Shown one piece after another: positions 3,585 through 60,971 of a stretch of 64,000 bases of DNA (the first letter of the stretch is position 1; each line of letters starts with the position of its first letter). The notes beneath the pieces were generated by a model. The model did not search any database and was not told where the DNA came from. It saw only the letters and a program-made list of their open reading frames with translations. Source of the DNA: Dillenia suffruticosa (taxonomy: Eukaryota > Streptophyta > Magnoliopsida > Dilleniales > Dilleniaceae); the NCBI GenBank assembly GCA_033439265.1, contig JAVTVX010000010.1:15903490-15967489 (forward strand), written 5' to 3'. Made by a program: the position numbers and the translations under genes.

Positions 3585-6500
3585 TTATCCTATGATATTA
3601 TCAAGTGGGCCATGCAAGGTCCCAAAAAGTGTGGTCATTATCTGTCTATGGCATTCATCACAGAATTACTAGGCATTGTGGCCCTCGTTTGGGAGCTTGT
3701 CTACTGCAGCACACGGGAGAATCCTATGGATGAAATCAGCCGATGATGGTGGAACTACACTGTCATCCATGCCCTGCTCAAAAATGGAAAATTTCAAGAT
3801 TTTCAGGAAATCGGGCATACAAGTTGGAAAACACAAGAAAATGAAAGACAAACATCTTTAATAGGCTTTTTATGTTTCAAGTCAAATCACTCCAACCGAG
3901 CCCAAAGTTAGCATTGAATGAAACAACAATCTACCATACCTGGATTACAATTTCAAGTATGTCTAAAACCGGCATATGTTTCACATTTATGTTCAGCTGC
4001 GGGTGAAAGTACCATTCTGAACCAACTTGCCCATTTCCCCACTCCAACCTAAGAAACAAATTAACTTAAAACACTGAAATAGTTAAAAGATGGTAAATAA
4101 ATGGAGGTTCCGACCTGCCATATGTGTGTTGAGACAAGAAATCCAACCAATTCTTGCTCAGCGTCACTGTACATTGATTTGAGCCAATCAAAGATGCCCT
4201 TTGGGTGACGGTTGTTATCAATTTTCAGGTCTGAAAGGCTGAAGCCCCAATCCGATACCTGCAAAGCAGCTTCCTCCACAAATGGCTTTGTACTTCCTTG
4301 CCAGACTGATTCCTCCACATCCCTTTGCTAGAATTCTTCAAAAACTGGTGGATCCATTATCCATGCTCTATCCTGGGAATTAATCACCATGTTGGGAGCA
4401 TACAAGTCATTAACAAAAAAAGAAGTCAATTTAGGATTTTCCAGAACTCCAGGAATAAATTATCACTACTCATCAGGTCAAACAGAGTAAAATCATCTAG
4501 CTTGTGGCTCTCCTCTACATCATTCTGTATTCAAGTTGCACCCGTGAAAATGGGAAAAGAAAAAATCATCTCAAAATTAAAATCCTAAAATTACAAATAC
4601 CGAAACAAATGGTGCTGTGCTGTTCAACCACCACCATCCTGGTTTAAAACCTACTTATATTGAACTTGACAAATGTACAAAGATCTCTGAGTCAAAAGAA
4701 GGAACTGCAATCACAGATGACTCACCCTTGCTCCCAGAGACAAGAAAAATCACTTGTCAATCTGACCATGCTTTCCAGATAGGAAGCTTTGGCAATAGAA
4801 GAAAGCAAGAAGCCCCGACATCTCCGAGCAATAAAGTACATAAATTTCCTGTTTGGGGCCCACCACTTCCAGATTTTCTCTTTCTCTTCTTTAGTAAGAC
4901 TTGATTCATATGGATTTACTACTGGAGCTAGCATGACAGCCCCTGCAGGTAAGATCACTGATAAATTAGAGACCCAAATGGTCATGTATTGAACATATCT
5001 ATGACCATGTCCTAATAGGAATATTGCATCCTACACCAATTATTATATCCCATGACATCTTGTCCCCATAAAATGGAAATTCTTGATGGAACTCTACCTT
5101 CAAGTCTTTCAGGAATGTATCTGAGTGCAGCCCATGCATGCATAGCTCCACTTGAATGCCCCACCACCCAAAACTTGTCACTGACACCCAAGGCATCTGC
5201 CAAGTGTAACATATCTCGGGCTGATGACTCAAGGTTTCTATCATGACGAGGATCACTTTCTCCAAAACCAGGGAGATCATTTGTTAACAAGCGGATGCCA
5301 AACTCTTCCAGTAACAATGATTTGAGCCCAGGAATTCCTGTATTAGGGAGGGAAAAGACAATCCTAACTACAACCAGAACAGTCATATGCCTTAAATTAA
5401 GCAGTTTAGCCACAATGGGCTGAACATATAAAACGTTTTACCTGCAAGTCAAAAGGAAAGAAATGAATGCAGGGTTATCACAGAAAATCTAGCTTTGTCA
5501 GCCGGAACACCTCGCTCCTCATATGCCAAGTATCTACCATCAGGAAGCAGTATTCTAGTCGCATTAGGGGGATGTACATACACTTTATTTACCAATGGTG
5601 TTGGAGATGGAGTATGGTGCACATTATTTACATTTAAGGCTGCAAATTGGCAACCATATTGTTACTTGTATCTTCAACTGCAGTATGAAAGTAAGCATAG
5701 AGAGTGCATTAAACATATAGATGCAAGCCTTCAAGCGAACTTCAAAGCAACGATAAAGAGGACAAAGTCATGCATTGCTGCAATACTAAACTATGCACAA
5801 CATATATAGCTAGATTTTAAGCTAAGCCCCAGCCATAACTTGCTATCACTCCGAATGATCTCAAAGCCTTCTAGCTACTAACCTTCTTTGAAAGTCCTTG
5901 TAAAGAACACCCATATTGTCACACGCATCAAACACCCAAAGTTGGCTTCCACCAAACACACTGGATGTCAAGCTTCATACATACAAATTTGCCCATTGCA
6001 TAAGCTGTGCCGAAGCACAAACCATTATCCTCAATTACCTTTTCAGTGATACATTACTTCACAGCCAAAGTCATGAACATATGGAAATTCATACACTGAT
6101 AAAATTATGTCCAGCACATTACATTGTTATATGCTCTTTGCTCACATCATCCCAAAAGAAGAGCACCATGTAATGGATTTTGTTATTTCATTCATTGACT
6201 ATTTGGTATTAAAAGTATTACTGCGTTAAGCATACCAACAAAAAATTCCTAACTAATATAAAAAGAAAAAACAAGCGTAAGGAAACGTTGATGGTTCCAA
6301 TTGGTACAATTAGCCAATTTTCACAACCTCAAATGGAAATGCAGAGAAATGGCACATTCCCCGCATATGGACCAATTACAGCATTATTGACCAATTACAT
6401 CACACCATGGACTTAGTCTTAACAGCATTATTCAGTCAAGCATACCAACTAAAAATTCCGAACATAGATATGCACAAAAAAATAAATAAATTTTCTTTCA

Positions 6501-6644
6501 CATTTAATGGCATGAGTGCCCATTGTTCAATATACTTGAAATGTCTTTCTTAATTAAGAAAATCAGTCTCGCTATAAGAAGAGCACAAAGCCACAAAATC
6601 TTCCTCACCACTCTTATTTCTTAGTTTTAGTTGGGCACAACCAA

Positions 6645-6890
6645 ATGGAAAACTTTTGTTTCTTGTTTCTGTTGGGGTTGTGTCTCTTTTCATTTTCCAC
6701 AATAGCCGAAGTCCTCATTGATAATTATACCATTGCCATAGAATGGCATCCCGGAGCATGCAAGGGAAAAGAGAAAGATGAAAAAGAGATATCTTGTTAC
6801 CAACCTATTGAACCAAAATTCTTCATTCATGGTTTATGGATCAATGATACTCCTTGTAAACAACAGGACTGTCCATTTCATGAGCCAGTA
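6645..6890 (+). pseudogene. RNase T2 (S-like ribonuclease) first-exon fragment, left copy
   Basis: This is the first exon of an RNase T2 family gene, encoding an N-terminal secretion signal (MENFCFLFLLGLCLFSFSTI) and then a segment ending in KFFIHGLW, the first conserved active-site block of the family (CAS I) with its catalytic His. The exon ends at a good donor, CCAGTA|GTAAGT. The second half of the family (CAS II, containing HEW/KHGTC-type residues) is not found downstream: the intron-like sequence runs straight into an inverted copy of the same exon. On its own it would encode only about 80 residues, so it is a gene fragment. A TATA-like CTATAAGAAG occurs just upstream near 6572 and is conserved in the other copy. 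Confidence 0.85.
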
Positions 6891-7205
6891 GTAAGTAAAA
6901 TGAGTTTATAATCATGTTAACAGGATCGAGATCTTGAAAAGTTAATGGAACAGAACTAGCCTAATTTTGAAAACACCTCTGACAAAAATTATATATTTTG
7001 GCAAGGATAGAGCATGGTATCATTGACTTTTCAAGATCTCGGCCACTCGTGTTGCCAGAATATATAATTTTTGTCAAAGGTGTTCTCAAAACTAAACTAT
7101 CTCTATTCCATTAACTTTTCAAAATCTCAATCCTGTTAACAGAATTATAAACCCATGGTTATATATGAAAAAAAAAAGAGTTTTGAATCGAAAATCTTTA
7201 ATTAC

Positions 7206-7447
7206 CAGTGGCTCACGAAATGGCCATGTTGTTTACAAAGAGTATTATTGAACCATAAACCATGAATGAAGAACTTTGGTTGAATAGGCCGGTAACAAGA
7301 TATCTCTTTTCCATGTTTATCTTTTCCCTTGCATGCCCCAAGACGCCATTCTATAGCAATGGTATAATTATCGATGTGTACTTTGGCTATTGTGGAAAAT
7401 GAAAAGAGACTCAACCCCAACAAAAATAAGAAATAAAAGATTTCTAT
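7206..7447 (-). pseudogene. RNase T2 first-exon fragment, inverted right copy
   Basis: This is the inverted partner of the fragment at 6645-6890, encoding GLSLFSFSTIAKVHIDNYT and KFFIHGLWFNNTLCKQ. The start codon has become ATA (7445-7447), and small deletions before the donor shift the frame so that it closes at a stop straight after HFVSHW. It is less well preserved than the left copy, and it too lacks the second catalytic block. Confidence 0.85.
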
Positions 7448-8447
7448 TTGGTCATGCTCAACAAAAACTAAGAAATAAGAGTAGTGACGAAGAGTCTATA
7501 GCTTTGTGCTCTTCTTATAGCCGGACTGATTTTCTTAATTAAGAAAGACATTTCAAGCATATTGAACAATGGGAACTCATGTCATTAAAGGTGAAAGAAA
7601 ATTTATCCATTTTAAGAGACTTAAATGGCAATGCTAATTTTCACATACCAATTGCTACATTGGTGCAACAAAGCTAAAAAAAACAGCATTATTGAACAAT
7701 TACATCACACCATTGATTTAGTCTTAACAGCATTATTCAGTCAAGCATACCAACTAAAAATTTCTAACATATATATATGAACAAAAAAATAAATAAATTA
7801 ATGTACGCACCGGTTGATACAATAAGCCAATTTCTACAATCTACGAAAACTGAAAATTAAATTCATCCTTTATAAAATTTAAAGACCAAATGGATTGAAG
7901 AAGTTCCTCAATAACTATACTATAGGCTAGCGATTTGGATTTAATCTCTCCGAGTAACGCAAACAATCACAATGGAAACCACAAAATCTCAAATATAAAT
8001 TCATCAAACACCAGAATTTACGAAATTTCAAAGTCCACAAACAATTTATAGATTGATTACCTGCGGAAGCAATGACCAGAACGAACAGTATAGCAGACCA
8101 GGAATGAACGGGATCGCGATCCTCAGGCAAATACTCATTAAAGAAGCTCAATTTCTCACAAACCGCTCTACAAGGCCCTCCGAATTTCTTCACAATCACC
8201 GAATCCTCATTCCCCAAAGTCCGCTTCACAATATCTCTACATCATCTCCCGAATTCCAATACCATCTCTCCCAACGCCTTCAGGAATTTCACAATCTGAT
8301 CCTTCACGCTCCCCGATTCGCCGCCGAATACCTTTTCGTCTACGCCGCCGTCGTGAAAACATGGTCGGACGATGTGCTGACGAGAGATGCCAGCACATCA
8401 TGCCGTGAATCGGAAGATTTAGTCTCGGAGGACGACGAGGAGATCAT

Positions 8448-10073
8448 AGCTTGAAATTAGTTTCAATGGTACAATGATACATTAACGAGAGAGAGAGAGA
8501 GAGATTAAATGAACCAAAACGACCAAACAAGTAACATGTCTTAATTGTTTTTTCAAATCAATAAGGGAAAGATAGTGTTTTTCCAGCTTTATCTTTAAAT
8601 TAACATTTTTCCTTTTAAGGTACTTTATTCTTTTCCATCTGTTTATTCTTTTAGAGAAAAATCGTGTAAATACATAAAAGCATAAATATATGTGTTGAAT
8701 CATTTATTTTTTCACGGGCCATTACTCATGTTTTGGAGGAAAATCCTTTCTTTGGCCTACATTATTTTTTCCCTTCTAGATATACAAATTTTGGATAAAT
8801 AAATTTTTTACGCAAAAAAAGAAAACAATGAATTTTGTTGCCATGGCCAATTAACCTGTAATTATAAGTCAAAAGAGTTTGTTCGGTGATTCTTTTAATA
8901 TTATTGAACTCTAAAAGCATTGCAGTTGCTATATTCTAAATGGTAGACAAAATGCTATAAGTCACCGACTTAACCAAAATTATACAGAATTACAATGGTG
9001 GGCCTTCTGATGGCGGTGGTGTTTAAGAAGTTTTGCTATTGGTGCCCAAACATGCCTCAGCTGTCTCCCAAAAATTACAATTAATCAGTACCAAAAATAA
9101 ATTACAATTAATATAATAATTTAAAAGAGAAAGAGATTTAAAGAAAAGAAAAAAGAAAAAGAAAAAGAACTCTGGTAGCATCATTAGTGGGCTATGCAAT
9201 TGAAATCACGTTATATGAACAAATTAATTTTTAATTTTTGACTAAGTTCCCTTTTTTTCTGTTACAACCTGATTAGAACCCTAAGTTCCCTGATTATAAC
9301 ATTAAAATTTTTGAATTTACTTTTCAAATATTAAACACATTGAAGTCTACTTTGGAATTTTGGGAATGGGATGATGAGCATCTAATGTCAACTTTGTTGG
9401 GTAGGGTTCTCTATCCCCAAATATGGATAGGATTCATTTCATTTTTTTTCAAAGTAAAATGCATAACAACTTTATATTATGGTGACCCATTTGATACGAG
9501 AAAAGACCATGACTCTGTAGTTGACTATAGTCTAATATCATTCCCCCAAAAAAGACCAATTTGATACATCTAATATTATTATAAAGAAAAATATGCATCA
9601 AAAGCAGTAAAAAAAAAATTGAGAGAGAATAGCAAAATCGAACTAAGAACACAACAGCATCAAAAGCATTAAAAAAATAGAGAGAGAATAGCAAAATGGA
9701 ACTAAGAACACAACAATACTTTAGTAAAATAAACAAATAAATTTAGGACGGAGGAGCAATAGAAAAAAAGAAATGCCCAAGGAACACGGAGACCAGAGGA
9801 TAATTATCAGAAATGCCCAACAAAACTAAGTTCCTGTTCAGAAATGGTACATTTCAAGCAAAAGATGTTTTCCATGGCACCAGTTACTCCAGGATCTGGA
9901 TCCCCAAATAGGAGTCCGTGGGAAAGAGAGAGATGAGATAAAGAGAGGCATATGGGCTCGGGAACATGCTAAACTTGATTGCCAAATCTTTGGGCCCAGT
10001 CATGTAGAGAGAGCGAGAGAGAGAGAGAGAGTATACAGTCTACAATTGCTCAAAAAAATTCCAAATCTTCGTG
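8448..10073. other. intergenic
   Basis: No gene is recognised. A (GA)n tract at 8488-8504 lies just upstream of the dead hydrolase. A short tandem duplication of about 65 bases sits at 9592-9715 (unit contains GAGAGAATAGCAAAAT and GAACTAAGAACACAACA). Another (GA)n tract lies at about 10011-10030, beside the 3' end of the RBR ligase gene. Confidence 0.5.
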
Positions 10074-60513: not shown

Positions 60514-60971
60514 TAGGGGTGTTATGACACTCGGGTCGAGCTCGGGTATCATAATACCCGAGCTCGAGCTCGATGTACTTTAGGTGAGCTCGAGCTCGAG
60601 CTCGAGCTCGTCGAGTTTGTATTTTTCGAGCTCGAGCTCGAGCTCGAAGTGTCGTCGGGTGTCATCGAGTAGTGTCGTCGGGTAGTGTAATTGGGTGGTA
60701 TACATAATATATTTAAAAAATATATCTAAAAATATAATTTTATATATAATTTTTTTAAAAAAATATATATATAATTATATATATAATTTATTTTAAAAAA
60801 AATTAAAATATTTTGGATAGCTCGTCGAGCCTTCGAGCTCGACACAGCTGGGCTCGAGCTCGAGCTCGATACCCAGCTACCCGAGCCCGAGCTCGGCTCG
60901 AGCTCGGTTTGACCGAGCCCGGGTAGTGTCACGGGTACCCGTGACACTACCCGGTGTCATTAACACCCCTA
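60514..60971. mobile_element. hAT-like MITE, 458 bp, with palindromic subterminal regions
   Basis: Terminal inverted repeats: the left begins TAGGGGTGTTATGACAC, and the right, read inward, TAGGGGTGTTAATGACAC. The flanking 8-base repeats ATAATAAT (60506-60513 and 60972-60979) are perfect, as for hAT elements. The interior is packed with GAGCTC and CTCGAG words around an AT-rich centre. A hairpin at 60540-60563 (GCTCGGGTAT/ATACCCGAGC) and a 36-bp perfect palindrome at 60919-60954 sit near the two ends. No coding sequence was seen. Confidence 0.85.

Follow-up and report, generated by a model that had tools for sequence, protein, structure and literature searches.

A decayed tail-to-tail palindrome of RNase T2 fragments in a hydrolase intron of Dillenia suffruticosa, and other RNase T2 palindromes in the assembly

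Persimmon OGI reportedly makes small RNAs against the intact autosomal target MeGI (PMC7048303), the 24-nt small interfering RNAs (siRNAs) produced by the ARR17 pair of poplar have been linked to methylation at the promoter of their target (PMC9636151), and the small RNAs of Brassicaceae Smi match the 5' region of their target (PMC13128112). Here, a stretch of 64,000 nucleotides from Dillenia suffruticosa (assembly GCA_033439265.1, contig JAVTVX010000010.1, positions 15,903,490 to 15,967,489 of the forward strand; hereafter the window) was analysed, in which an earlier note had pointed out the inverted duplication of an RNase T2 first exon as a candidate hairpin locus. We consider it probable, at about 0.62, that the locus is a non-functional intronic pseudogene palindrome; in all, four tail-to-tail palindromes of RNase T2 sequence were found across the genome, this one included.

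The repeat search of the window revealed inverted segments at 6479-6865/7227-7613 (387 nt, 89%) and 6900-7004/7052-7156 (105 nt, 87%), with 47 nt separating the inner arm ends. Combined with the arm alignment, they defined a left arm at 6485-7004 on the plus strand, a right arm at 7052-7613 on the minus strand, and a loop at 7005-7051 (47 bases, no strand assigned), the minus strand of which was a further repeat of the exon 2 start (gagatcttgaaaag). The palindrome occupies C10:15909974-15911102, with arms pointing towards each other and joined within exon 2 (C10 denotes the window locus, C1-C34 the contigs of the assembly, and C29_1447 and similar labels the RNase loci on C29). In the joined arm alignment from 6485-7004, 455 of 516 ungapped positions were identical (88.2%), and the alignment was interrupted twice, by a gap of 4 bases in exon 1 and one of 40 in the intron. 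The tail-to-tail inverted duplication described earlier was thus confirmed, with arms 88% identical around a 47-base loop. Because 61 of 516 positions and two gaps set the arms apart, they could not be one sequence laid down twice, and an assembly artefact, in favour of which only the general misassembly risk of palindromes could be cited, is extremely improbable. The Kimura two-parameter (K2P) distance between the arms was 0.13, corresponding to ~9 to 26 million years at plant substitution rates of 7e-9 and 2.5e-9.

Single-strand folding of the palindrome gave -665.7 kcal/mol, compared with an average of ~-225 kcal/mol for 5 mononucleotide shuffles. For 6479-7613, 491 base pairs were predicted, with a longest uninterrupted helix of 35, which bore out the expectation of a stem of about 500 bp; the stems of usual MIRNA genes are far shorter. 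No other inverted pair of more than 36 bases was detected in the 64-kb window at E<=1e-10. Since the inverted pair was unique in the window and its fold lay far below those of the shuffles, chance was ruled out as its origin. The locus is therefore a long, near-perfect inverted repeat, as would be expected of a hairpin RNA (hpRNA) locus. The sole other inverted match in the window at this threshold was a perfect 36-base palindrome at 60919-60954.

Each arm was found to contain ~160 bases of upstream sequence, exon 1 with signal peptide and CAS I, a short GT...AG intron and the first part of exon 2, which stopped at CAS II. On the left (plus strand), exon 1 (6645-6890) encoded the signal peptide and CAS I, in an open frame continuing to 6908, and was followed by a GT...AG intron remnant of 33 bases (6891-6923, 40 fewer than in the right arm) and by 81 bases of exon 2 (6924-7004), homologous to exon 2 of the relative on C16. 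On the right (minus strand), exon 1 (7206-7447) preceded a GT...AG intron of 73 bases (7133-7205) and the 96 bases of exon 2 up to CAS II (7037-7132), with ..NYIFWQHEW at minus 7093-7037. The arms had previously been taken to end in the start of the intron; an intron was indeed present, but it was complete and short (33 or 73 bases), and the arms continued beyond it into exon 2 as far as CAS II. FFIHGLW and FWQHEW are the motifs that we take to be CAS I and CAS II, respectively. The RNase T2 profile PF00445 matched the left exon with 23.5 bits against a curated cut-off of 26 bits (E 6.9e-5), and in the genome-wide Pfam search the window arms were missing from the matches, which did include exon 2 of the C16 relative. 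The RNase T2 assignment is considered safe because of the order of CAS I and CAS II and because of this Pfam-listed exon; judged by profile and motif order, the window arms are RNase T2 family sequence.

Inspection of the reading frames showed that both arms were decayed. An intact frame through both catalytic motifs was absent, as the right arm had lost the ATG (ATA) and carried a 4-base deletion, and the left exon 2 start contained an in-frame stop. A frame of 88 amino acids was retained in the left arm. Among the ungapped exon 1 codons that differed between the arms (n=26), 19 changed the amino acid and 7 were silent; in the 73 codons ahead of the 4-base gap, 16 differences were amino-acid-changing and 7 silent, so that exon 1 of the arms showed no sign of constraint at the protein level. 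On the same grounds, a hidden coding function for the left 88-amino-acid frame was rejected.

The whole palindrome was enclosed by intron 1 (5640-8060, minus strand, 2421 bases) of an alpha/beta-hydrolase gene, the exons 1 and 2 of which joined in frame at the GT...AG border. The next open frame (5012-5434) carried PF00561 (E 7.9e-10). In hydrolase exon 1 (8063-8450, minus strand), stops were observed in frame upstream of the splice site, so that damage to the host gene, or its misassembly, is possible. The palindrome was flanked on both sides by a direct repeat of 105-117 bases, with plus-strand copies at 6378-6482 and 7683-7787 that were 90-92% alike. A genome query spanning this repeat matched at 4 places, none of them outside C10: its own two copies, and two partial matches limited to the first 80 bases of the query, in the stretch next to the repeat.

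The target search covered the 596-Mb assembly (37 contigs), by a genome search that passes over very common words and computes scores for the top candidates only, and the Pfam run of which missed the window arms. With the left arm as DNA query, 5 matches were obtained, namely the two window arms and three C16 pieces. Of the 11 matches in the protein search, two were the arms themselves, three lay at C16, four were C29 copies, and those on C21 and C8 were weak (E 0.21 and 0.22); the 9 besides the arms were 30-59% identical across short stretches. The genome Pfam search gave 23 RNase T2 exon matches, at C15, C16, C20, C24, C26 and C29. Neither the DNA nor the protein search of the assembly found an intact RNase T2 gene whose exon 1 was similar. 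The longest exact run shared with the palindrome was 14 bases across 11 RNase regions besides C16 and 12-13 bases in three more (C29_1494, C34 and C21), 14 regions in total, and C16, itself a decayed palindrome, shared an exact stretch of 29 bases. None of the 21-mers of the palindrome, on either strand, occurred with <=3 mismatches in C29_1447, C29_1465 or C29_1513, and the counts in the 7-kb regions C26a, C26b and C24 were 0, 0 and 3. An intact target with near-perfect sites, as expected for an hpRNA, was thus not found in the assembly, where the searches may miss copies. The suggestion that the hairpin could silence RNase T2/S-RNase genes sharing exon 1 was not supported by these results. 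The earlier note had itself named the lack of a sufficiently similar intact RNase T2 gene, together with a lack of transcripts and small RNAs, as grounds for abandoning the idea, and the first of these was what the genome search indicated for the present assembly. Rfam gave 0 matches at gathering score in window positions 4000-10000 and in L017, L045 and L060; since only weak, generic sub-threshold stem matches were seen, a known MIRNA or other RNA family was rejected.

Three further tail-to-tail palindromes of RNase T2 sequence were found. The C16 palindrome (L017 4277-5880; within C16:13672277-13674457) ran from exon 1 to intron 2, with 74.6% identity over the inverted alignment; that of C15 (L045 3941-5077; C15:4036941-4038077) from exon 2 to exon 3 (85.7%); and that of C21 (L060 81-733/1021-1698; C21:12645981-12647598) from exon 1 to exon 3 (74.4%), with arms of 653 and 678 bases. 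A pair on C29 at 1.458 Mb (L047, 66.6%) was arranged head to head, C34 held a single degraded RNase T2 fragment, and C1 one 251-base DNA search match. No description of RNase T2 palindromes was found in the open-access literature, as judged by titles and the starts of abstracts. At C16, a small second palindrome was also present (L017 6080-6457, fold z -22 vs 100 shuffles), and a 208-base direct pair lay farther out on either side (L017 467-674 and 7630-7837). An open frame resembling a first exon (L045 5459-5764, minus strand; MGAASKVGDWAFKAFTLGLG...) adjoined the C15 palindrome.

The two C10 arms shared an upstream element of 62 bases, located at 6515-6576 (plus strand, upstream of a TATA-like site) and 7516-7578 (minus strand). 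Besides these, two more copies were detected in the assembly, both in the small C16 palindrome, making four in all, with 87-92% identity between the two loci. The element was better conserved between C10 and C16 than the exon piece (57/62 vs 76/108, ~70%; p 9e-4 for a comparison chosen post hoc). A dispersed transposon was rejected, as the 4 detected copies were all at RNase palindromes and the matches of the flanking repeat were all on C10.

Outside the C29 cluster, tail-to-tail palindromes were found at 4 of the 6 loci whose DNA is close to that of the C29 or C10/C16 groups (C10, C15, C16 and C21, but not C34 and C1). The proportion became 4/10 when the distant RNase T2 loci (C20, C24 and two on C26) were added, and 4/18 with the 8 C29-cluster pieces. 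As controls, 49 thaumatin and 8 Kunitz loci were inspected for a convergent pair within 3 kb, and none was found (0/57), although one divergent thaumatin pair was present. Fisher p values against 0/57 were 2.5e-5, 2.7e-4 and 2.5e-3, respectively; because the window locus had been chosen for being a palindrome, it was dropped in a recount, which gave 2.6e-4, 1.8e-3 and 0.01 (the last for 3/17). These values are to be read with the imperfection of the controls, which were found by protein profile rather than by DNA and are mostly intact genes with fewer fragments. P450 was not counted as a control (88 of 1027 candidates scored), and DNA matches of <=160 bases, many of them in AT-rich introns, and the weak protein matches on C21 and C8 were omitted from the counts. 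In five random 10-kb regions (of 60 drawn) no close palindrome was detected; in one of the five, inverted pairs of 226 and 111 bases were present, but with 3.5 to 4 kb between their members. The C16 flank L018 held inverted pairs of 455-583 bases more than 2 kb apart, and the flank L019 none. Short close palindromes do occur, as the C20 region had a close inverted pair of ~165 bases, 74% alike.

The exon 2-3 tree placed the two C15 arms as sisters (99/97), with C29_1447 beside them, and likewise joined the C21 arms as sisters (100/100). The exon-1 tree paired the C10 arms with each other (100/100) and grouped them with the C16 arms (100/100), and no fork paired the C16 arms. The join positions also differed, C10 being joined in exon 2, C16 close to where intron 2 ends, C15 at the end of exon 3 or just past it, and C21 inside exon 3. 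The simplest reading of trees and joins is that the palindromes formed separately, in at least three events, a pattern that gene conversion between arms could imitate.

The C29 genes C29_1447, C29_1465 and C29_1513 looked intact exon by exon. The C15 palindrome was 80-82% identical to C29_1447 and, with both strands counted, had 44 exact 21-mers in it, 7 in C29_1465 and 4 in C29_1513; C21 had 1 in each of these three genes, and C10 and C16 had 0. With <=3 mismatches, 601 21-mers of C15 and 178 of C21 were found in C29_1447, compared with 3-28 for C15 and C21 in unrelated 7-kb regions of C24 and C26. Because of the identity of 80-82% and the 44 exact 21-mers, C15 would be a better silencing candidate than the window locus, and the one to test if any RNase T2 hairpin here acts. 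Exon 2 of C29_1447 matched RNases MC1, NE (presumably 1iyb), NGR3 and LE with E values of 3.3e-9 to 2.8e-7 and was farther from S3-RNase (2.5e-4) and SF11-RNase (0.0095); the window exon was too short for this comparison. Some members of the RNase T2 family are pollen-blocking cytotoxins in self-incompatibility. In the C29 cluster at 1.44-1.52 Mb (L021 3546-4751), an F-box gene with an FBA_3 domain was observed beside an RNase T2 gene, and the cluster copies at 1.465 and 1.494 Mb scored alike. A linkage of RNase and F-box genes as in S-loci is possible there.

The order of events that we infer for the window locus is as follows. A copy of a secreted RNase T2 gene would have inserted into the region that today forms intron 1 of the hydrolase gene; an inverted duplication of that copy, joined inside exon 2, would have followed, and both halves would have decayed afterwards. 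The hydrolase pre-mRNA, or read-through from either side, might then carry a stem of ~490 pairs that Dicer-like enzymes could cut. As no intact RNase T2 target was found in the assembly, the resulting small RNAs would at most silence the window locus itself or its C16 relative. Several points count against this reading. Transcription from the host gene is uncertain because of the frame breaks in its exon 1, a target could have been missed by the search or could sit in another haplotype, the conservation of the 62-base element would not be explained by a pure relic, and the repeated appearance of palindromes within a single gene family may hint that selection or some special mechanism was at work. 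If the locus were instead an active or recently active hairpin-RNA gene, its siRNAs would have silenced a parent RNase T2 gene that is now lost or survives only in other haplotypes. The 491 predicted pairs with an unbroken helix of 35, the enclosing intron as a possible supplier of transcription, and the inverted-fragment precedents in persimmon and poplar (PMC7048303, PMC9636151) would fit such a gene; the lack of a found target and the decay of both arms with no visible coding constraint make it quite unlikely.

The recurrence of palindromes could also reflect a bias in how RNase T2 copies disperse, with strand switching, a carrier transposon or local repeats leaving inverted duplicates that have no function. 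This explanation is tentatively entertained, as the direct repeats of 105-117 bases around C10 and of 208 bases farther out around C16, the extra exon 2 piece in the C10 loop and the second small palindrome at C16 all point towards it. However, the C10 flanking repeat had no second genome site and nothing alike was matched at C16, and neither transposon ends nor coding parts were recognised. A transposon with long terminal inverted repeats and a captured exon was rejected because the C10 and C16 flanks were unmatched, with no search for transposase families made. An unlikely alternative to such a bias is a silencing network around the C29 cluster, in which C15, and weakly C21, would silence C29 genes today, and C10 and C16 would be spent, their targets being dead. 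The excess at non-C29 loci (4/10, or 4/6 near copies, vs 0/57) and the 21-mers shared with C29_1447 (44 exact and 601 near for C15, 1 and 178 for C21) would agree with it, whereas it is weakened by the lower excess with C29 pieces in and the window locus out (3/17), by control families that were profile-found with fewer fragments, and by the lack of a found target for C10 and C16. The broader proposition that secreted RNase T2 genes were repeatedly made into hairpin genes (C10, C15, C16 and C21, in at least three events) which silence the C29 cluster now or did so once is doubtful. Were it true, plants would have a counterpart to the control of dangerous genes by hairpin RNAs. The window locus would then be an old member whose target has disappeared before it, and the conserved 62-base upstream element would be the last part of it still active.

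Considered as a non-functional pseudogene palindrome, the window locus alone is ordinary, and the genome-wide pattern is the part worth following. From C10 together with C15, C16 and C21, the RNase T2 family may be unusually prone to copying into hairpin form. If C15 makes small RNAs against its relative, it would offer a testable case of hairpin silencing of a secreted RNase as it arises, and the window locus would show what remains after target loss. Among described systems, pseudogene-derived miRNA genes under the inverted duplication model likewise start from an inverted gene fragment as raw material, but the window locus has neither an Rfam family at gathering score nor a found target (PMC3237417). 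The hpRNAs against Drosophila Dox-family genes resemble the present set in that several hairpins, scattered over the genome, are related to gene families that evolve rapidly; they were shown by Dicer mutants and small RNAs, whereas a sequence pattern is what is seen here (PMC10317233). Smi and its relatives at the Brassicaceae S-locus are hairpin loci tied to a self-incompatibility gene (PMC13128112), but that gene is a different one (SCR), the loci are active and lie in the S-locus, and the RNases here would at most be putative S-RNases. The inverted exon-fragment pair of ARR17 on the poplar Y, with relaxed constraint and a hairpin-forming structure (PMC9636151), is alike in build; for the window locus, the searches found no target that shares its promoter or exon. 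In persimmon, a gene was copied to another place, and a local inversion at the copy then created a potential hairpin (PMC7048303). The window locus, known from its sequence, differs from OGI/MeGI in having no found target, while the tree of the C15 arms suggests the same order as in persimmon, with the gene copy first and the inverted pair later.

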